Below are positions 2,716 to 9,933 of a stretch of 52,194 bases of DNA, piece by piece. Source of the stretch: a bacterium (lineage in GTDB: Bacteria > Patescibacteriota > Saccharimonadia > Saccharimonadales > SZUA-47); the NCBI GenBank assembly GCA_030427365.1, contig JAUHWW010000001.1, positions 95,963 to 148,156 of the forward strand, given 5' to 3'. The stretch's first letter is position 1; each line of letters begins with the position of its first letter. A model generated the notes under the pieces. It worked only from the letters and a program-made list of their open reading frames with translations. It searched no databases and had not been told where the DNA came from. Both the position numbers and the translations under genes were made by a program.

Positions 2716-3566
2716 AATTCGAGGGAGTCTTTAATACGCTGGGCAGATGCTTCGGCGCGGTAGTCGTCAAACCAAGTGACGCGCCAACCAAGATGTTCGG
2801 CGGCCATAAGATTCGCGCGGCTGTCATCGATAAATAAGATCTCATCAGGTGCAACACCGCTGGCAGCCTGCGCTGACTCGTAGATGCCTTCTTCTGGTTT
2901 GATGCTGCCGACTACGGACGAATCGATAATGGCATCATAAGTGATATTCGGCAGCAAGCCCGCGGCGATCATGCGGTCAAGTTGACCCGGCATGATGTTG
3001 GTGAGCAGGCCGACCTTGTAGTGTTCGGCGGTCCATTTGAGCAGTTCAATCATTTGCGGCAAAACCTCGACGGCCTTTTCGTAGTAGTCGCGCCAGTCGA
3101 GGGCAGGGAGGTCGAGCCGCGTCGCAAGCGCTTCATTGAAATCTTCAATACTCATATCACCGCGGCAAACGGCGTCGTTGTAGTGCCAAAAGGTGCTTTC
3201 CACAGCGTCGATAGGCTGACCAGACTCCTCTGATAGCGCACTAAACGCGGCGTGAAAAAAGCGTACCAAGACGCCGTTAACGTCAAAGTAGACGAACTTC
3301 ACTCCTGATTTGCTGGTTTTCTTGCTTGGCTGCGGCCCTTTGGTATCAACGCCTGCGCCCCGCAGGAGTGCGTCGATAGTAGTCCCAGTGGCGTCACAGA
3401 TAGCATGAACAGTGAATACCGATGGAGCTGCAATCGCTCCACGCTCGATTTTGGCCAAGGTCGAATAGGATACGTCTATACGCTCACAGAGTTCCTGCTG
3501 TGTCAGACCAGCGTTTTTACGCGCTTTTTGTATAGACTTACCTAAAGTCTTGGCTTCTCCACCCAT
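2712..3566 (-). CDS. XRE-type HTH fused to HAD-superfamily hydrolase
   Basis: The first ~70 residues are a Cro/C1-type helix-turn-helix (LTQQELCERIDVSYSTLAKI region, about 21-40), followed by a basic linker and a HAD subfamily IA domain from about residue 88 to the end. The HAD motif I reads DVNGV, so the nucleophile Asp is present but the acid/base Asp at +2 is Asn. Motif II (LLTN), the KPE lysine motif and the DD of motif IV (FIDDS) are present. A plausible role is a DNA-binding regulator sensing a phosphorylated metabolite, but no substrate can be named. It is transcribed alone, with CATAGT just upstream of the ATG. Domain assignment is sure; function is not. Confidence 0.85.
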   Translation of the reverse strand: MGGEAKTLGKSIQKARKNAGLTQQELCERIDVSYSTLAKIERGAIAAPSVFTVHAICDATGTTIDALLRGAGVDTKGPQPSKKTSKSGVKFVYFDVNGVLVRFFHAAFSALSEESGQPIDAVESTFWHYNDAVCRGDMSIEDFNEALATRLDLPALDWRDYYEKAVEVLPQMIELLKWTAEHYKVGLLTNIMPGQLDRMIAAGLLPNITYDAIIDSSVVGSIKPEEGIYESAQAASGVAPDEILFIDDSRANLMAAEHLGWRVTWFDDYRAEASAQRIKDSLEF

Positions 3567-3620
3567 CTAGCACTATGTTACCAGTTATGAGCGGAAAAAA
3601 CGAGACATTTTAGCCGGATG

Positions 3621-3791
3621 TTACAAGACGAGGTTGAGCGTGCCCCAGACAATTATCAGCACAACCACGCCGATGACGCCGGCTGCGATAACTGACTGCT
3701 GCGTATTGCTGCCTGAGCGGCGCATGAATTTGTTGTATAGCCAGGCGGTAGCACTAGCTGCGATAAGAAGAGCGATGACAAAGTTACTCAT
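3621..3791 (-). CDS. Small two-helix membrane protein, unknown function
   Basis: A 56-residue ORF on the minus strand, too short for most gene callers. It begins MSNFVIALLIAASATAWLYN and has two hydrophobic segments (about 3-20 and 33-55) separated by a basic loop with KFMRRS, which predicts an inner-membrane hairpin. It ends 54 bp from the start of the XRE-HAD gene, and both are on the minus strand. The plus-strand ORF in the same place has no membrane or codon logic and is taken as the shadow. No family recognised. The hydrophobic pattern in one frame is the main support. Confidence 0.6.
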   Translation of the reverse strand: MSNFVIALLIAASATAWLYNKFMRRSGSNTQQSVIAAGVIGVVVLIIVWGTLNLVL

Positions 3792-3814
3792 GACAAGAAG
3801 TATACAGCGAACGG

Positions 3815-3844
3815 CTGACAGAAGACAGCGGAGGAGGCTATAAT
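3815..3844 (+). promoter_or_regulatory. Promoter of tRNA-Ser(CGA)
   Basis: A -35 box CTGACA (3815-3820) is followed, after 18 bases, by a perfect -10 TATAAT (3839-3844). The mature tRNA 5' end lies 10 bases further on at 3855. This is one of the few stable-RNA promoters in the window with both boxes recognisable. Confidence 0.7.
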
Positions 3845-3854
3845 TATTTTCATT

Positions 3855-3944
3855 GGAAGAGTGCAGGAGTGGTTGAACTGGCTTGTCTCGAAAACAAGTG
3901 TGCCGGCAACGGTACCGAGGGTTCGAATCCCTCTTCTTCCGCCA
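3855..3944 (+). tRNA. tRNA-Ser (anticodon CGA)
   Basis: Class II tRNA with long variable arm. The acceptor stem GGAAGAG (3855-3861) pairs with TTCTTCC; the anticodon loop CTCGAAA puts CGA at 3889-3891; the T arm is GAGGG-TTCGAAT-CCCTC; discriminator G and an encoded CCA (3942-3944). It reads UCG. A terminator follows, and then a partial copy of the T arm and acceptor end (4010-4056), described separately. Confidence 0.96.
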
Positions 3945-3954
3945 GGAAGAGAGG

Positions 3955-3985
3955 CGGCCGTCTTTTGATGGTCGTTTCTCTTTCT
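3955..3985 (+). terminator. Intrinsic terminator of tRNA-Ser(CGA)
   Basis: Stem CGGCCGTC (3955-3962), loop TTTT, stem GATGGTCG (3967-3974) with two G-U pairs, then a pyrimidine-rich TTTCTCTTTCT tract. A second small hairpin (TTTCTCT/AGAGAAA, 3975-3992) overlaps the tract. Confidence 0.65.
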
Positions 3986-4003
3986 AGAGAAAGATTTGAA
4001 GCC

Positions 4004-4056
4004 TCGTGAGTGGTTCGCTACCGATGGCCTAGGCCGTCCATCCCTCCTCTTCCGCT
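4004..4056 (+). other. Partial tRNA-Ser(CGA) copy with a hairpin inserted in the T loop
   Basis: Beyond the terminator, GAGTGGTTCG (4008-4017) resembles the T-arm 5' strand of the tRNA. It is followed by about 22 inserted bases that hold the palindrome GATGGCCTAGGCCGTC (4023-4038), and then TCCCTCCTCTTCCGCT (4041-4056), which matches the tRNA 3' end (3928-3943) at 14 of 16 bases. A GGAAGAG at 3945-3951 can pair with CTCTTCC at 4047-4053 as an acceptor-like stem. No anticodon arm is visible, so this is not a functional tRNA. Two other tRNA genes in the window carry the same kind of unit. Confidence 0.55.
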
Positions 4057-4104
4057 AAACTGCTGCTGCTTGCAATATGTATGAACGGCTATAGAGTGTA
4101 AGCT

Positions 4105-4518
4105 ATGACAGACACAAATCTCTACATTTACTTTGAGATGGGTGAAAGAAGGGATCCCACACCTGGCTTAGAAGAAATATTGTCACGGCGTAATGGTGGC
4201 GAACCCTACGAATGGATACCTGAAGCAGAAGAGGCATATCGCTCGCAGGCTGCTTCCATAGCGGAAACAGGCTTATCAGCCTTTTTGAATGGAGTCCCTG
4301 AACCGCCGGAAAGCCCTTTTGAAGGCTATCACCGCGTTAACATACTTGATGTTAGGGAGTTGGGGGAAAGCATAAGGTTAGATAGGAGCATGTATCGAGT
4401 AAGACAAGTCTACGCAAGTCCTGAAATAATTGAGAGACGATGGGGCGTGCTTCCTATTGATGGATGGTATTTAAAATCTGCTATTGATGACGACGGTGAT
4501 ATTACGATTTGGTTTTAA
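4105..4518 (+). CDS. Hypothetical protein
   Basis: A 137-residue acidic soluble protein with no signal peptide or membrane segment. It has a Glu/Pro-rich first half and a C-terminal part that looks like mixed alpha/beta (WYLKSAIDDDGDITIWF at the end). I do not recognise the family. The start ATG lies nine bases after a possible TATAGA box (4090-4095). Codon use looks more AT-rich than in valS, which suggests an accessory gene. It converges with the reductase gene, six bases away. Confidence 0.65.
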   Translation: MTDTNLYIYFEMGERRDPTPGLEEILSRRNGGEPYEWIPEAEEAYRSQAASIAETGLSAFLNGVPEPPESPFEGYHRVNILDVRELGESIRLDRSMYRVRQVYASPEIIERRWGVLPIDGWYLKSAIDDDGDITIWF

Positions 4519-4524
4519 ATTTGA

Positions 4525-5817
4525 TTACATGGAAAAGGCTTCGTTGTGGATCTGCGCAAGAGGGACACCTGCATCGGTGAGCTGGCGTTTTAACGCGCCC
4601 ATCATGCCGGGCGGGCCACAGATCATGTAATCGTATTCCTCAAGCTTTGGAAGTGAGTTTTTGAGCAGGTCAACGCTGACGAATCCGCTTAAATTTTTGG
4701 CAACAACTCTCGTATCAAAGTTTTCTGGTACGGTGCGCGCTACATCAATAAACTCTTGTAGGAACACTGCTTCCTCGAGGCTCTCAGTTCCATAAAAAAA
4801 GCGAATATCGTAGTGACTACGCCCGGAGAACGAACGAGCCATGCTAAGAAACGGTGTAATTCCAACGCCTCCGGCAATCCAGACCTGCTTGTGATTTTTC
4901 ACACGGCGGTAATCAAAACGGCCAAAGGGACCTTCGAGGTAGGCTTTCGTGCCTTTTTTCAGGTGTTTGAGCATCGAGGTATCATCACCGAGGCTTTTGA
5001 CCGTGAAACGGATGTATGGCCCATTTGGTGCATTGGAAAACGAATACGGGTGCGCCTCTGAATCAATGCCATTTTGCTCAAAGCTGACAAATGCAAATTG
5101 ACCAGGGGTGAAAGTGAGAGGAACACCCTTTGGTTTGAGAACTATCTCAACCACGTTTTCAAGGAATTGATTCACTTCAGCGACTTCATACACGTGCCGG
5201 TGCACAAAAAAACGACTGAAGACTGAACGATACAAAAACGCGGTGAATCCGCCTGTGGCGAGCACAATATAAAACACGAGCAGGGGAGTGATCTGCATAA
5301 TTTGTCCACCTGCAATCAGGCCGTGCACCATAAACAGTGGGATAAGCCAGCCGAAGGCTTTGTGCACTTTCACCCACTTCTGATGCTTGATATGCGAGTA
5401 GATGGCTAGACCGGTCAAAATGATTAGCGCGAGCAAGCTAATAATTCCTGTAATGATCAGAAGACTCCACCAATTCCAAATCGTCGTAAAGCCGAGCGGA
5501 CCAATGCTTCGCCCAATACCGAGCGCGAATGGATGCAGGAGAATCAGATAAAAGGCGGCTTTGCCGGTTGATTTGTGCAGTGAGTAGACATGATCAAGAC
5601 CGCCAAACAGCTTTTCCAGCCAAGGGGAGCGCATACTGAGAATTGGGTTCACAAGATAAAGTGCTAGGCCACTGAGAGCGGTCGCTTTTCCAACACTTGC
5701 GACAACAACAGAAGTGTTGGTCGTGACGCTGGCAAGTCCAACGTGATACAGCCATAGTGCAACCGGAATAAGCGCGACAAGTCCCAAAAGCAATCTTCCA
5801 CTCGCATGAATAAGCAT
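4525..5817 (-). CDS. Ferric reductase-like membrane oxidoreductase (FAD/NAD(P)H)
   Basis: 430 residues. The N-terminal half has six or so membrane helices with paired histidines typical of a two-heme ferric-reductase/NOX/MsrQ fold: SLHKSTG and LLHPFA, then KVHKAFG and MVHGL. The C-terminal half is a ferredoxin-reductase module: FAD motif HPYSFSN (about 250-256), NAD(P)-binding GGVGITPF, and the late CGPPGMM. It should move electrons from cytosolic NAD(P)H through FAD and heme across the membrane; the acceptor (metal, oxygen or quinone) cannot be told. The start follows TACAAT by six bases on the minus strand. An electron-transfer protein is noteworthy in a genome type that usually lacks a respiratory chain. 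Confidence 0.88.
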   Translation of the reverse strand: MLIHASGRLLLGLVALIPVALWLYHVGLASVTTNTSVVVASVGKATALSGLALYLVNPILSMRSPWLEKLFGGLDHVYSLHKSTGKAAFYLILLHPFALGIGRSIGPLGFTTIWNWWSLLIITGIISLLALIILTGLAIYSHIKHQKWVKVHKAFGWLIPLFMVHGLIAGGQIMQITPLLVFYIVLATGGFTAFLYRSVFSRFFVHRHVYEVAEVNQFLENVVEIVLKPKGVPLTFTPGQFAFVSFEQNGIDSEAHPYSFSNAPNGPYIRFTVKSLGDDTSMLKHLKKGTKAYLEGPFGRFDYRRVKNHKQVWIAGGVGITPFLSMARSFSGRSHYDIRFFYGTESLEEAVFLQEFIDVARTVPENFDTRVVAKNLSGFVSVDLLKNSLPKLEEYDYMICGPPGMMGALKRQLTDAGVPLAQIHNEAFSM

Positions 5818-5849
5818 GACCTTATTGTAGCAGCGAACGACCTTCGGTT

Positions 5850-6707
5850 CTACGCCAGTTCGGAGGCAAGTTTTATGGAACCTAGTACCCCGATGGTGTC
5901 CCCGCTGGAGCGGACGATATATTCGTTAACATCGGGAATTTCGAAATAATCATTAATGAATTTTAGGGTGTGACGCCGCACCGCGTTGATGAGCTCGGGA
6001 TGCTTCATGACGCTGCCACCGAGGATGATGATTTCTGGCTGCAACACTGAGATGATGTTGGTGACGCCGTAGGCGATGTAGCGGGCAACTTTATCCCAGT
6101 ATTCTGCATCGTGCAATTCGCCGGCAGGCTGGCCAGTGCGGATCTCGATGGATTTGCCACTGGCGAGACCCTCAAAACAGTTCATGTGGTAGGAGCAGCC
6201 TCCATGCTTTCCTTGATCTTCTGGGTCGGCGGGGATACGCATGTGCCCCATTTCAGGGTGGGATATGCCATGTACGATATCTTTATTGACGATGACAGTG
6301 CCGCCGACGCCGGTGCCAATAGTGAGGTAGACGCTGTTCTTTTTCATCACGCTTTTGCCATGAAACTGCTCACCAATTGCGGCGGCGTCAGTATCAGTGA
6401 CAACGGCAGTAGGGATGCCGAGTGCTTCGGTAAAGTAGGTATAAATATTCACGTTTGACCAGCCAGGTTTGGTTGTGGTGAGGATCGTCCCGAAATTATC
6501 ACTTGATGGATGAAGTTCAATCGGTCCAAAGCTGCCAACGCCGAGCGCTCGTACGTTCCGCCCTTTGAAAAATTCTGCGGCCTGGCGCAAAGTGTTCGGC
6601 GGGTCCGTGGTATCGATACTTATCTGCTCCCGGATTTCTCCGTAGCCACTTCCAATCGCACAAATAAACTTTGTGCCCCCAGCTTCAACCCCACCATACA
6701 TGTTCAT
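5850..6707 (-). CDS. ROK-family sugar kinase (fructokinase-like)
   Basis: 285 residues. It phosphorylates a hexose using ATP. The phosphate-binding GGVEAGGTKF at 5-14 and the catalytic-Asp segment TDTDAAAIGE (104-113) are clear. A zinc site is formed by H155, C171, H174 and C177, in the spacing of bacterial fructokinases (GHMRIP start, C-x2-H-x2-C), and GTGVGG at 131-136 contacts ATP. The resemblance is closer to ScrK/YdhR fructokinases than to glucokinases. The ATG follows CATACT by eight bases, leaderless style. Stands alone, transcribed away from the candidate RNA at 6771-6905. Confidence 0.88.
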   Translation of the reverse strand: MNMYGGVEAGGTKFICAIGSGYGEIREQISIDTTDPPNTLRQAAEFFKGRNVRALGVGSFGPIELHPSSDNFGTILTTTKPGWSNVNIYTYFTEALGIPTAVVTDTDAAAIGEQFHGKSVMKKNSVYLTIGTGVGGTVIVNKDIVHGISHPEMGHMRIPADPEDQGKHGGCSYHMNCFEGLASGKSIEIRTGQPAGELHDAEYWDKVARYIAYGVTNIISVLQPEIIILGGSVMKHPELINAVRRHTLKFINDYFEIPDVNEYIVRSSGDTIGVLGSIKLASELA

Positions 6708-6767
6708 TTGCTACTAGTATGGCATATTTACAGCTCATAGAAAGCCCTAGTAAAAAGTGTGAAAAAG

Positions 6768-6776
6768 TGCTACAAT
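6768..6776 (+). promoter_or_regulatory. Extended -10 promoter (TGCTACAAT)
   Basis: TACAAT at 6771-6776 preceded by TGn. No -35 box is visible at 16-18 bases. It would drive rightward transcription of the structured region at 6799-6896 and possibly tRNA-Arg. Confidence 0.5.
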
Positions 6777-6798
6777 TCACCTCTGTTACAAGATTGTA

Positions 6799-6896
6799 GC
6801 TGACCATTTTTGTGAGGGGATTCGCAAAAATGAGACGAGGCGGCTTGATTTGGTCAGCAACAGTGCTCGAAAACTTGTTTTGCGAGCCGTGTGCTG
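6799..6896 (+). ncRNA. Candidate structured RNA upstream of tRNA-Arg
   Basis: A gene-free stretch with nested pairing: outer stem GCTGACC/GGTCAGC (6799-6805 with 6852-6858), inner hairpin ATTTTTGTG/CGCAAAAAT (6806-6814 with 6823-6831, one G-U), then hairpin GCTCGAAAAC/GTTTTGCGAGC (6865-6887, one bulge). It lies between an extended -10 box and tRNA-Arg. It may be an independent small RNA or a leader processed from the tRNA transcript. It does not show the signature elements of RNase P RNA, tmRNA or SRP RNA. The short minus-strand ORF across it has no support. Confidence 0.4.
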
Positions 6897-6920
6897 GACG
6901 AATCATTACACGCCGAGGAA

Positions 6921-6997
6921 GGACCCGTAGCTCAGCTGGATAGAGCGTCTGTTTGCGGTACAGGAGGTCGCAGGTTCAAATCCTGCCGGGTTCACCA
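6921..6997 (+). tRNA. tRNA-Arg (anticodon GCG)
   Basis: 77 bases with encoded CCA. The acceptor GGACCCG pairs with CGGGTTC; anticodon stem TCTGT/ACAGG; the loop TTGCGGT places GCG at 6955-6957; T arm GCAGG-TTCAAAT-CCTGC. It would read CGC and, by wobble, CGU. Most bacteria use an ACG anticodon edited to inosine by TadA, so the genomic GCG is unusual. Confidence 0.95.
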
Positions 6998-7006
6998 ATT
7001 TAAGAC

Positions 7007-7029
7007 ACCGACCATCCGGGTCGGTTTTT
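7007..7029 (+). terminator. Intrinsic terminator of tRNA-Arg
   Basis: ACCGACC (7007-7013), loop ATCCG, GGTCGGT (7019-7025), then TTTTT. Flanking CCAATTTA and TAAATTGG extend the dyad on both sides. Confidence 0.85.
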
Positions 7030-7055
7030 AAATTGGTACTTTGTGAGTGTTGAAG

Positions 7056-7190
7056 CTGCGACCGGTCGCAGGTGAGCAGTGCCGTTCGCGCACTGCGCAA
7101 GAGAATCTTTCAGCAATGAAGCTTGTCTTCATGCTTGAAAATTCTGGGCCCGCGCTAGCGTGGGCAAATCCTGCCGGGTTCACCAATGTA
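7056..7190 (+). ncRNA. Hairpin-rich partial copy of tRNA-Arg with a large T-loop insertion
   Basis: GGTCGCAGGT (7064-7073) repeats the variable-loop/T-stem 5' strand of tRNA-Arg, and 7165-7187 repeats exactly the 23 bases from its T loop through CCA (6977-6999). About 91 bases are inserted between them, consisting of three further hairpins: GCAGTGC/GCACTGC (7076-7096), a long imperfect stem 7102-7145 with inner ATGAAG/CTTCAT, and GCCCGCGCTAGCGTGGGC (7148-7165). Upstream, CTGCGACC forms a perfect 16-bp palindrome with GGTCGCAG (7056-7071), which would compete with the T stem. A terminator follows at 7195. No anticodon arm is present. Confidence 0.55.
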
Positions 7191-7194
7191 AGAA

Positions 7195-7217
7195 CGCCAG
7201 CCCGGTCTGGTGTTTTT
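7195..7217 (+). terminator. Intrinsic terminator after the tRNA-Arg-like unit
   Basis: CGCCAG (7195-7200), loop CCCGGT, CTGGTG (7207-7212), then TTTTT and a T-rich tract. Its placement after CCAAT mirrors the terminator after the true tRNA-Arg. Confidence 0.75.
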
Positions 7218-8391
7218 ATTTTGTTTTTTTGTCGTTAGAGTTAGTAACTTTTTTCTTTAGCGCTTCTTTACGTTTCGTATTGTTTTTTTTGTATTTTTTT
7301 GGCTTCTTGGTAGCGATCTTGCGGTAGTGTTTCTCAAGGTGCTCAGGTGGTTCTTTGAATAGTCGTCGTTTGTGTTCGCGCCGTTCGTAGCCGTGGTAGT
7401 AGTAAAGGATGAACAGCAATATCGCGACTGCAGCATAAACGGTGAAGAAGCGGAAGGTCCAGAAGGAGATATCAGCCACTGCACGGCTGATAATTGGCTG
7501 AATGACGTTGCTAGCAAATGTGCTGGCAGCTTCGTCTTGCGAGAAAACGCCCTCTAGCCAGTTGTCGGAACGCGCTGTGAAGAAGGTGAAGATGCCGAGG
7601 GTCAGTGCACCAAACAAAAAGCCGCGACCGAATCGTGTAAGTAAGCGACGTTTATTGCTGGCCAGCACATAGAGCAGGCCAGCACTGATGACAGCGGCGG
7701 CGATAGCAATAACCGCGCCGAGCTTCGCAATCTGCCAGGCAGGTGGCAAGAAAGAGACGGTGCTTTCCAGAGGTTTCGCTTCTCCATTTTCCGGATCTCC
7801 ACGGGTGATGTCATCGGCAGAAATAATCGGTTCCACAGGAGTAAAATCGTCATCAAGCGTGCGCGTTTTGAAGTCACTGAGTAATGCCTGAATATCGACA
7901 TTTGGTGGCAGGCAGGCAGCTTTGAACGGATCGACATCGAGTGAATCCGGCAGCGTTGTGCACGTTGGCAAGTCCATTAGCCGGGCTTCAGCGCGATCGA
8001 CGATATTGGAGCGGAAATCCTCTATTTCATCGCGAAAATCAATCGTAAATTGGATAGTTTCAGATTGCCCGTCGAGCCACGCGTAAAAACCATCGAGCAG
8101 CGTTTCAAAATTATTCTGCAATCGCTCAGGCGTAAACGAGTTGTTTGCCGCAGCAATCAAGGTATCGGTATCGAGGCTGCTTTCATTAATTTGATCTTTC
8201 GCTTGTTCCGCAGACGTTTTTACAAGCTCGCTAACAAATGAGTCATAGGCGCCACTTTGCTCCACCCAGCCTTTAACAGATGAAGAATTTGCGACAGTTT
8301 CGTTGAACGTCCAGCCGTAGGCAATAAAAAGCAAACTGCTAAAGAAAATGCTGGTGAGGATGAGTGCCGCTACTTTGCGTAAAAATCCCAC
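7216..8391 (-). CDS. Membrane protein with extracytoplasmic helical domain and basic tail
   Basis: 391 residues. An N-terminal membrane helix (about 7-28) is followed by a mostly helical, acidic extracytoplasmic segment of roughly 190 residues, three membrane helices clustered near 220-345, and a cytoplasmic tail extremely rich in Lys/Arg (about 350-391) that may bind RNA, DNA or ribosomes. The same plan, without the long tail, occurs in the protein at 43805-44656, so the two look like paralogues. Start GTG with a GGGGAG sequence upstream. It lies 18 bp after the 219-residue membrane gene and is probably cotranscribed with it. Function unknown. Confidence 0.8.
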   Translation of the reverse strand: MGFLRKVAALILTSIFFSSLLFIAYGWTFNETVANSSSVKGWVEQSGAYDSFVSELVKTSAEQAKDQINESSLDTDTLIAAANNSFTPERLQNNFETLLDGFYAWLDGQSETIQFTIDFRDEIEDFRSNIVDRAEARLMDLPTCTTLPDSLDVDPFKAACLPPNVDIQALLSDFKTRTLDDDFTPVEPIISADDITRGDPENGEAKPLESTVSFLPPAWQIAKLGAVIAIAAAVISAGLLYVLASNKRRLLTRFGRGFLFGALTLGIFTFFTARSDNWLEGVFSQDEAASTFASNVIQPIISRAVADISFWTFRFFTVYAAVAILLFILYYYHGYERREHKRRLFKEPPEHLEKHYRKIATKKPKKYKKNNTKRKEALKKKVTNSNDKKTK

Positions 8392-8409
8392 CGTACAGGT
8401 TGCTCCCCG

Positions 8410-9069
8410 TTAGAACCGTATGCGTCGTGAGGCACGCTCAACGGCATCTAGTTCACGCTGTTGGTAGGGAAGGACTTGGGACAAAGCATCGGTGATGGCT
8501 TGACCGTCTTCTGGGGCAAAATACAGCCTGATGGTGGGGGTGAGCTTGCTGAGTGTCTCGAGCCAAATACTCTCAATAGCACCTTCGCGAACGACTGAAA
8601 AAGAGCGGAATTCACTCATAGGGTAGGATTTATCATCAATTGCTAGCCCGTTTGTTGATAGCTTGTAGCGACGAATTTCTGGACGGCGCGCGGAGTAAAA
8701 CATAGCAGCAAAAGCAACGATGATAATGGTGATGGACGCAAGTAATTCACCGGTGATGAAATAGATGAGTGCTGCAACAACAGCGCCACCAGCGGCGGAT
8801 GCAGCGAACCATGTCGGCGATTTTTCATGAGCTATGTATTCAGATGCTGTCCACTCGATGGTAGCAATGTCGGTAGTGGGCTGGTCAGCGCCCTCGCCCG
8901 TGAAAGCCCATTCGCTGCTTGCTTCCGGGTCTTCAGGAGTAGGGGGTACTCCTGCCGCCTGCGGTTGCTCATTATTTGGAGCAGAAGCTTGCCCTGCCTC
9001 TAATTCAGTTTGCTCAGGTTTCCCTGGCGTGACGTTGTCTCCCGGCTTTGGCGTGTTGTCATCCTGCAT
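8410..9069 (-). CDS. Two-helix membrane protein with PH-like C-terminal region, unknown function
   Basis: 219 residues. The first ~70 are Pro/Glu/Gln-rich and probably disordered. Two membrane helices lie at about 88-107 and 110-126, preceded by the aromatic juxtamembrane EWTASEYIAHEKSPTWF. The C-terminal ~90 residues resemble a bacterial PH-type beta domain (YKLSTNGLAIDDKSYPMSEF). The start ATG follows TACAAT by six bases, leaderless. First gene of a two-gene operon with the 391-residue membrane protein. Role not known. Confidence 0.75.
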   Translation of the reverse strand: MQDDNTPKPGDNVTPGKPEQTELEAGQASAPNNEQPQAAGVPPTPEDPEASSEWAFTGEGADQPTTDIATIEWTASEYIAHEKSPTWFAASAAGGAVVAALIYFITGELLASITIIIVAFAAMFYSARRPEIRRYKLSTNGLAIDDKSYPMSEFRSFSVVREGAIESIWLETLSKLTPTIRLYFAPEDGQAITDALSQVLPYQQRELDAVERASRRIRF

Positions 9070-9097
9070 GTGCTTATTGTAACAGGAGTACTAAAAT

Positions 9098-9121
9098 GAA
9101 AAAAACTCACAGAAAGTGAGT
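9098..9121 (-). terminator. Terminator after the tRNA-Ser(GCT)-like unit
   Basis: On the minus strand: ACTCAC, loop TTTCT, GTGAGT, then a run of seven T. It lies just beyond the second copy of the tRNA-Ser(GCT) 3' end. Confidence 0.8.
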
Positions 9122-9128
9122 TAATTTT

Positions 9129-9190
9129 CTGGCGGAGAGAGAGGGATGGGCGACTGGCGCCGCCGAACCGAACCCCTTGCAGGGAACGAA
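9129..9190 (-). other. Partial tRNA-Ser(GCT) copy with T-loop insertion
   Basis: Reading the minus strand, a T-arm-like GGGGTTCG (9169-9176) is followed by about 21 bases with a GGCG/CGCC hairpin, and then 19 bases (9147 down to 9129) identical to the last T-loop-to-CCA stretch of tRNA-Ser(GCT) (9263 down to 9245). A CCCT-GCA-AGGG dyad upstream could mask the T-stem strand. The unit sits between two intrinsic terminators. No anticodon arm is seen. This is the third unit of the same design, after tRNA-Ser(CGA) and tRNA-Arg(GCG). Confidence 0.55.
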
Positions 9191-9207
9191 TCCTTTCTTC
9201 GGTAGAA

Positions 9208-9235
9208 GAAAAAAGACCAGGCATAAAACCTGGTC
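9208..9235 (-). terminator. Terminator of the tRNA-Ser pair
   Basis: Minus strand: GACCAGG (9235-9229), loop TTTTATG, CCTGGTC (9221-9215), then six T. Confidence 0.85.
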
Positions 9236-9245
9236 GCTCTTCTCC

Positions 9246-9338
9246 TGGCGGAGAGAGAGGGATTCGAACCCTCGCTGGGGGTTTCCCCCCACTATCGATT
9301 TAGCAAACCGACCCCTTCAGCCACTTGGGTACCTCTCC
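9246..9338 (-). tRNA. tRNA-Ser (anticodon GCT)
   Basis: 93 bases with encoded CCA and a long variable arm (GGGGGG-AAA-CCCCCC type). Acceptor GGAGAGG at the 5' end; anticodon loop TTGCTAA with GCT complementary to 9302-9304; T arm GAGGG-TTCGAAT-CCCTC. It reads AGC/AGU. It lies 19 bases downstream of tRNA-Ser(TGA) and is probably cotranscribed with it. Confidence 0.95.
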
Positions 9339-9356
9339 ATAGGAAATGGAAAACAG

Positions 9357-9447
<91 letters not shown>

Positions 9448-9476
9448 TGGTGCTGCAAGTTAGGGACTGGATGAGG

Positions 9477-9482
9477 ATTATA
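9477..9482 (-). promoter_or_regulatory. Extended -10 box of the tRNA-Ser pair
   Basis: TGTTATAAT on the minus strand (TATAAT at 9482-9477), a TGn-type extended -10, about 30 bases before the mature 5' end. No clear -35. Confidence 0.55.
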
Positions 9483-9525
9483 ACAGAGATAGAGCAGTTT
9501 TTATAGTCTCGTTAATCGTTTGGGA

Positions 9526-9933
9526 TCAGGTGTGTTGTACAAGTTCGCTAACTCTTTGCCTTATCTCATCTCTGATCTTGCGGGTATCCTCGAGTGAACT
9601 ACCTTTTGGGTCAGAGACCTCCCAATATTCATAGGATGGTAGTTTCGGCAGCCACTCTGGAATCGTTTCTGGCTCTGCCATGACGACGACTTTCTCGTAG
9701 TGCCGCGTCTCTTCTTCGTCGATTTGCGCGCGAATATTCCCCGAAACGTCTATGCCGAGCTCTTTCATCACGGCAATAATGTTCTCGCCCCCGCGCGTGC
9801 TGACCGTCGTTCCGCTATCGGCTACTCTCGTGCCGGCAGAATGTGCATCCTGTGAACCAGTAAGCTGATTGTAGAATGCTTCAGCCATCTGACTTCGCCC
9901 CGTATTCCCACGGCAAACAAATAGAATTTTCAT
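9526..9933 (-). CDS. Low-molecular-weight protein-tyrosine-phosphatase family protein
   Basis: 135 residues, close to the usual size for this family. The phosphate-binding loop C-x5-R is C7-R13 (VCRGNTGRSQ), and the general-acid Asp-Pro pair is D108-P109 (VSDPKG). The fold also covers thioredoxin-coupled arsenate reductases, but the extra cysteines of ArsC are absent, so phosphatase is the better reading. Start ATG six bases after CATACT on the minus strand. The substrate, a phosphotyrosine protein or small phosphate ester, cannot be told. Confidence 0.85.
   Translation of the reverse strand: MKILFVCRGNTGRSQMAEAFYNQLTGSQDAHSAGTRVADSGTTVSTRGGENIIAVMKELGIDVSGNIRAQIDEEETRHYEKVVVMAEPETIPEWLPKLPSYEYWEVSDPKGSSLEDTRKIRDEIRQRVSELVQHT

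Follow-up and report, generated by a model that had tools for sequence, protein, structure and literature searches.

Three tRNA genes in a 52,194-nt stretch of the genome of a Saccharibacterium-like Patescibacterium are each followed by a short element that ends in a copy of the 3' end of that same tRNA. The stretch, hereafter the window, covers G000:C10:95963-148156 in an assembly of 935 kb (G000, the source genome), whose closest relatives by valS carry the name Candidatus Saccharibacteria. Such copies also lie behind other tRNA genes of this genome and of its relatives, and the same core recurs at many tRNAs. We interpret the elements as tRNA-linked repeats, and probably as small non-autonomous mobile elements that enter tRNA sequence and duplicate the adjacent part of their target.

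Anatomy of the elements

Read outwards from the CCA of the tRNA, the order of parts is a terminator, an inverted copy of the tRNA 3' end, a copy of the T-arm 5' strand, a core, and a direct copy running from the T loop to the CCA. A second terminator often closes the element, and the stem of the first often extends so that CCA pairs with TGG.

All of these parts are present behind the intact tRNA-Arg(GCG) gene (6921..6997, plus strand; the tRNA genes of the window were called with ARAGORN). Its terminator hairpin (6998..7037) has an extended stem that sets CCA opposite TGG, and is followed on the same strand by an inverted T-arm copy, TTGAAGCTGCGACC (7050..7063), a copy of the T-arm 5' strand, GGTCGCAGGT (7064..7073), and a structured core with a four-way junction (7068..7174), referred to below as type A, whose ends are the T-stem strands and which matches our covariance model R1 with 68.4 bits. 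The direct T-loop-to-CCA copy (7165..7185) agrees with the tRNA at 21/21 positions in our copy survey, and a second terminator, weakly similar to the first, lies at 7186..7222.

The two serine elements have a short hairpin, type B, as their core. Past the intact tRNA-Ser(CGA) gene (3855..3944, plus strand) there are, on the same strand, a terminator-like hairpin region (3945..3980), an inverted copy of the T loop and T stem, GATTTGAAGCCTCG (3993..4006), a T-arm 5' strand copy, GGTTCG (4012..4017), the core hairpin identified by folding in the T loop of the copy (4023..4038), and a slightly decayed direct copy from the T loop to the acceptor end (4040..4056; 14/16 in the survey). The intact tRNA-Ser(GCT) gene (9246..9338) is on the minus strand, as are its terminator (9201..9245), inverted T-loop copy GGATTCG (9187..9193), T-arm 5' strand copy GGGGTTCG (9169..9176), type-B hairpin, again from folding (9149..9164), and direct T-loop-to-CCA copy (9130..9147; 18/18 in the survey). 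The remaining parts were assigned from the sequence and, for the inverted copies at Ser(CGA) and Arg, also by a class test against other tRNAs.

A preliminary description of the window had given these positions for the three tRNAs and their downstream partial copies, with T-arm 5' strands and palindromic inserts ahead of each tail, and all of this agrees with the ARAGORN calls and the sequence. The observation was real and understated, as an inverted copy of the tRNA end lies ahead of all three elements and the Arg insert is a structured domain of ~100 nt.

Across 67 elements the inverted copy is closer to the host tRNA (mean 21.1) than to other tRNAs (mean 14.6; Wilcoxon p 3e-11); it is decayed in Saccharibacteria and nearly intact in other Patescibacteria. 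The flank past the CCA is duplicated exactly or near-exactly at five loci. Elements are also found upstream of tRNA genes, where they come after a copy of the promoter and of tRNA nt 1-26 or 1-53, as at the tRNA-Phe gene of the source genome, where 48 nt comprising the promoter and the tRNA 5' part are duplicated. The upstream elements at nt 26/27 terminate in a snapback hairpin.

At L103 (335-588, minus strand) a tRNA-Glu element of a Parcubacterium occurs a second time, with a longer core, behind the terminator of another gene and with no tRNA gene beside it. At L176 the tail of tRNA-Thr(GGT) and at least 50 nt of its flank are repeated exactly ~150 nt downstream with no type-A core, and at L035 tRNA-Leu(CAA) is followed by a second, decayed 3' half and a duplicated flank, AATGTGATTAACGAA.

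Frequency of the copies

In the copy survey the last 22 nt of each tRNA gene were compared with its downstream sequence, the upstream sequence serving as the control; counts are based on fetched loci. About a quarter of the ~40 tRNA genes of the source genome are followed, at a distance of 60-300 nt, by a copy of their 3' end. Twelve of the 40 score at least 16/22, among them one artefact, Ser-TGA, whose score comes from the element of the adjacent tRNA-Ser(GCT) gene. In the upstream control, tandem or neighbouring tRNAs excepted, matches were only 9-15.

The preliminary description had taken recurrence at unrelated loci as an argument against chance, with second copies expected behind the tRNAs of related genomes. 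Such copies are present: in the family genomes sampled, matches of at least 16 occur downstream of 21/92 tRNAs against 0/92 upstream. In a wider sample of Patescibacteria fetched via valS, 17 of 114 tRNAs (one of the 17 double-counted) have downstream matches of at least 17, and the best upstream match is 16. The excess over upstream controls in the source genome, its family and the Patescibacteria thus bears out recurrence beyond chance. One contig, L045, is labelled Chlamydiae bacterium, but its valS is 61% identical to that of the window and groups with Saccharibacteria, and it is probably mislabelled or misbinned.

Fold and distribution of the type-A core

Type A is the commonest core and occurs, besides at 7068-7174 of the window, at Pro, Lys, Leu and other tRNAs. 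It is a four-way junction of three hairpins and the T-stem, the tRNA's own stem being the one that closes it. Compensatory changes are seen in 19/36 pairs among five sequences, in 30/38 pairs among twelve sequences (0/500 shuffles as high) and in 31/34 pairs among 60 model hits, where a G-U combination occupies one pair in 48 of the 60. Together, the covariation and the G-U pair favour a putative RNA function on the tRNA-sense strand, a reading tempered by an alignment that had itself been fitted to this strand. Both serine elements of the window have cores of type B, which form a short hairpin preceded by GGTTCG and align poorly (47% identity).

The model R1 represents the type-A core and is blind to tRNA distance. 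It gave 16 strong hits in the source genome, four of them training sequences; 11 of the 16 lie within 400 nt of a tRNA and 14 within 2 kb. Over 72 fetched loci, of which many were fetched around R1 hits regardless of tRNAs and others around tRNAs, there were 53 strong hits; 35 of these follow a tRNA on the same strand and 12 precede one. The core was found at more than ten kinds of tRNA, also upstream at the nt 26/27 junction, and nearly all copies share the orientation of the tRNA. Across 380 Patescibacteria genomes the hits are concentrated in the order of the source genome (~10 of 30 order genomes) and sparse elsewhere; on other Patescibacteria R1 gave one correctly placed but weak match (L071, E 0.45). 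Cores at L284 and L285 lie away from tRNAs, and one at L286 is reversed beside tRNA-Ala. The reversed core is situated inside a hairpin of another repeat family (..TTTTTGAA.T.AATTCAAAAACT.CACCAC.CCCCTAAAGCTC), which follows tRNAs at L286 (1504-1603), at L031, tRNA-Leu(CAG), and at L033, tRNA-Leu(TAA).

This distribution bears on two other explanations. It is well known that tRNA 3' ends are classic att sites, and with direct repeats flanking the element one could see short remnants of phage or island integration, an option raised in the preliminary description as integrase att remnants. Finding one and the same folded core at more than ten tRNA types led us to reject such remnants. That core has a conserved fold with covariation and is not a recombination residue, and the inverted copies, the upstream versions at nt 26/27 and the lack of any integrase besides Xer further make this origin very improbable. 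Template switching during replication, with gene conversion between similar T arms, would account for the joint presence of inverted and direct copies, which resembles snapback and template switching, for junctions within conserved tRNA micro-homologies, and for partial copies lacking the type-A core (the L176 Thr and Leu-CAA cases). A core that is conserved and covaries across many genera and tRNAs, however, requires selection or self-propagation, and the two cores away from tRNAs and the reversed one also speak against this explanation, which we regard as rather unlikely.

Evidence for movement

Between the source genome and its congener G001, occupancy differs at ~10 of 25 single-copy tRNA genes. 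Only Phe is above the threshold in both, and Lys(CTT) is filled in both by eye. At tRNA-Thr(TGT) the post-CCA flank of the empty genome resumes directly past the second copy in the filled one. At the orthologous Phe and Met genes the tRNAs are 96-100% alike and the elements only 65% and 49%. Cores that are 99-100% identical are found at different tRNA genes within one genome (Gly/Arg in G196, Lys/Lys in G295 and Gln/Gln in G277), and the nearest neighbour of a core is on the same tRNA in only 3/47. Mean core similarity by genome versus by tRNA type did not differ significantly (p 0.15 and 0.49), and the information lies in the near-identical pairs and the nearest neighbours alone. It is therefore well supported, by occupancy differing within a genus and by near-identical cores at different tRNAs of one genome, that the elements spread and draw their tRNA-specific flanks from the target, by insertion or by conversion between elements. 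Of the options in the preliminary description, that of tiny mobile elements which form a family and insert at tRNA 3' ends fits best, given the presence and absence in sister species, the near-identical cores at different tRNAs and the duplicated flanks.

In the mechanism that we envisage, the core (~100 nt of type A, or one short type-B hairpin) would enter tRNA sequence at a fixed single-stranded point, either in the T loop between nt 53 and 54 or at the D-stem/anticodon-stem junction, 26/27. Insertion would duplicate the neighbouring part of the target, either the T loop to CCA with the terminator or the promoter with the tRNA 5' part, and the tRNA gene would therefore stay intact while the partial copy has the sequence of the host tRNA. 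The inverted copy facing the intact gene resembles what fold-back (snapback) synthesis might leave. We infer from this a copy-in insertion through a single-stranded or RNA intermediate, with snapback.

A different view is that these are putative small RNA genes, read through from the tRNA promoter, processed at their CCA-like ends and retained for regulation, with spread being secondary. A small-RNA role is possible, given that conservation lies on the tRNA-sense strand, which has a fixed G-U pair. The strong covariation on that strand and the co-orientation of nearly all copies with the tRNA are consistent with such genes, and so are the expression of RrA/B/F, the 5S-linked repeats of Escherichia coli, and their in vitro binding to Hfq and CsrA (PMC8144298). 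Against this, occupancy varies even within one genus, the Phe and Met elements have diverged far more than their tRNAs, and tyrT copies are lost or multiplied in E. coli strains; overall, retention for regulation seems to us the less probable origin, but one to be taken seriously.

Several findings weigh against mobile elements. No insertion was caught in action, and the exact absence of an element can also be explained by deletion between direct repeats. R1 matches neither serine element of the window, both being short type B, and it is specific to relatives of Saccharibacteria, so that elements elsewhere have a common architecture and no demonstrated common core. Because R1 regions outside the source genome were fetched around hits or tRNAs, they are biased toward tRNA proximity. 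Lastly, there is no candidate transposase common to all carriers; the source genome has no match to Y1, RVT_1 or TnpB and a single Xer-type recombinase.

Enzymes and candidate cargo

Y1 transposases are present in 7/9 genomes searched, and we rejected them as movers, with none in the source genome and no element sequences found next to the Y1 genes of other carriers. Reverse transcriptase (RT) and TnpB (PF07282; 0/12 carrier genomes) were likewise set aside as movers, both being absent from the source genome. Group I and II introns and retrons found no support, with no Rfam intron match in window positions 3400-9700 and no RVT_1 in the source genome; group I introns need no RT, and only the Rfam result bears on them. 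The single tyrosine recombinase (L287, 1823-2746) scores above the cut-off of the XerA-type model NF040815 and below those of XerC/XerD, and reaches 137 bits against the cut-off of 265 for the integron integrase, TIGR02249.

Some copies appear to bear genes. At tRNA-Glu(CTC) (L279, 545-3125; G000:C6) there are two open reading frames (ORFs), of 243 and 216 aa; behind each come a type-A core and a Glu tail, the tails matching at 20/20 and 19/20, and a decayed third unit lies after them. This array resembles a gene-cassette array anchored on a tRNA. The tRNA-Trp gene (L280, 3773-5188, minus strand; G000:C17) is followed by an ORF of 169 aa, then by a type-A core that bears a Trp-like tail, and then by an ORF of 68 aa. 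No family was recognised for the ORF proteins of the Glu and Trp units, which we tentatively regard as cargo. Directly behind the Ser(CGA) element of the window, a 137-aa ORF (4105..4518, plus strand), also of no recognised family, is possibly the cargo of that element. The motif GCTTATGCTTGCA after the CCA at Glu and Trp was considered as a cassette boundary and rejected, because its spacing to -10-like sequences speaks for a promoter.

These units raise the prospect of integron-like cassettes, in which a folded, attC-like element would be inserted at the tRNA and a tyrosine recombinase would move arrays of cassettes with ORFs. The order (+) ... (-) core (+) is that of an integron cassette, each Glu ORF ends in a core and Glu tail, the Trp unit is similar, and tandem arrays exist. 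Set against this are the low integron-integrase score of the sole, Xer-type recombinase, the tails that switch tRNA identity and the inverted copy at nt 26/27, which a site-specific recombinase leaves unexplained, and the finding of the first Glu ORF in only 1/119 genomes of the order, which leaves cargo mobility conjectural. Nor is the type-A four-way junction the single imperfect hairpin of attC, and we consider such cassettes improbable.

Comparison with known systems

Integron cassettes and attC sites share with this family the order of direct and inverted boxes, a folded site, arrays and, at tRNA-Glu, apparent ORF cargo. Unlike integrons, the family has no IntI and another fold, the tRNA is the insertion point, and the tails are specific to the host tRNA. 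REPIN/RAYT and repeats derived from IS200/IS605 are likewise small, structured, non-autonomous repeats, but the source genome lacks a Y1 transposase and TnpB and the elements are not beside the Y1 genes of carriers.

The closest likeness is to the tRNA-linked repeats (TLRs) of E. coli, including RtT, and the statement in the preliminary description that no element of this architecture had been described was mistaken. TLRs were first seen in 1978, and K-12 has 22 of them at ten loci, with no known function or origin except for the three 5S-linked members (PMC8144298). Like the window elements, they lie behind tRNA (or 5S rRNA) genes and their final 18-19 nt are the 3' end of the upstream RNA; the RtT copies at tyrT/tyrV have an inverted copy, T-arm 5' strand, closed core and tail in the same order. 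Both groups have tandem copies and an occupancy that varies among strains or species: RtT occupancy and copy number differ among E. coli strains, and strain E7-1N7 has an exact empty site at tyrT. All three window elements lie immediately downstream of a tRNA, and the family also has upstream copies. Judged by their tails, the window elements are best placed with the TLRs, as an apparent variant with its own core. The RtT model (RF00391) had no match up to E 5 in window positions 3400-9700 and none at gathering in L020, L071, L099, L103 and L105, while it does match the E. coli tyrT copies, and R1 had no match in E. coli. In contrast to TLRs, the type-A core folds into a four-way junction of another kind, some elements lie upstream at nt 26/27, and in place of ten loci at least a tenth to a quarter of the sampled tRNA genes are occupied. 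A bolder proposal, which we hold to be doubtful, is that a mobile RNA-structured element guided by the tRNA fold could enter the T loop or 26/27 of any tRNA and rebuild the tRNA from its own sequence, sometimes carrying genes in tRNA-anchored cassette arrays, and that E. coli TLRs would be of the same class.

In the literature covered, which did not include supplements and bioRxiv, we found no description of tRNA repeats in Patescibacteria. The present findings extend the little-understood TLRs of E. coli to the candidate phyla radiation and point to a class of repeats overlooked by the present annotation of small genomes. With its defined fold, its two fixed points of insertion in tRNA, an occupancy that is polymorphic and what appears to be movement from one tRNA gene to another, this large Patescibacterial family makes the origin of TLRs testable both in E. 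coli and in cultured Saccharibacteria.

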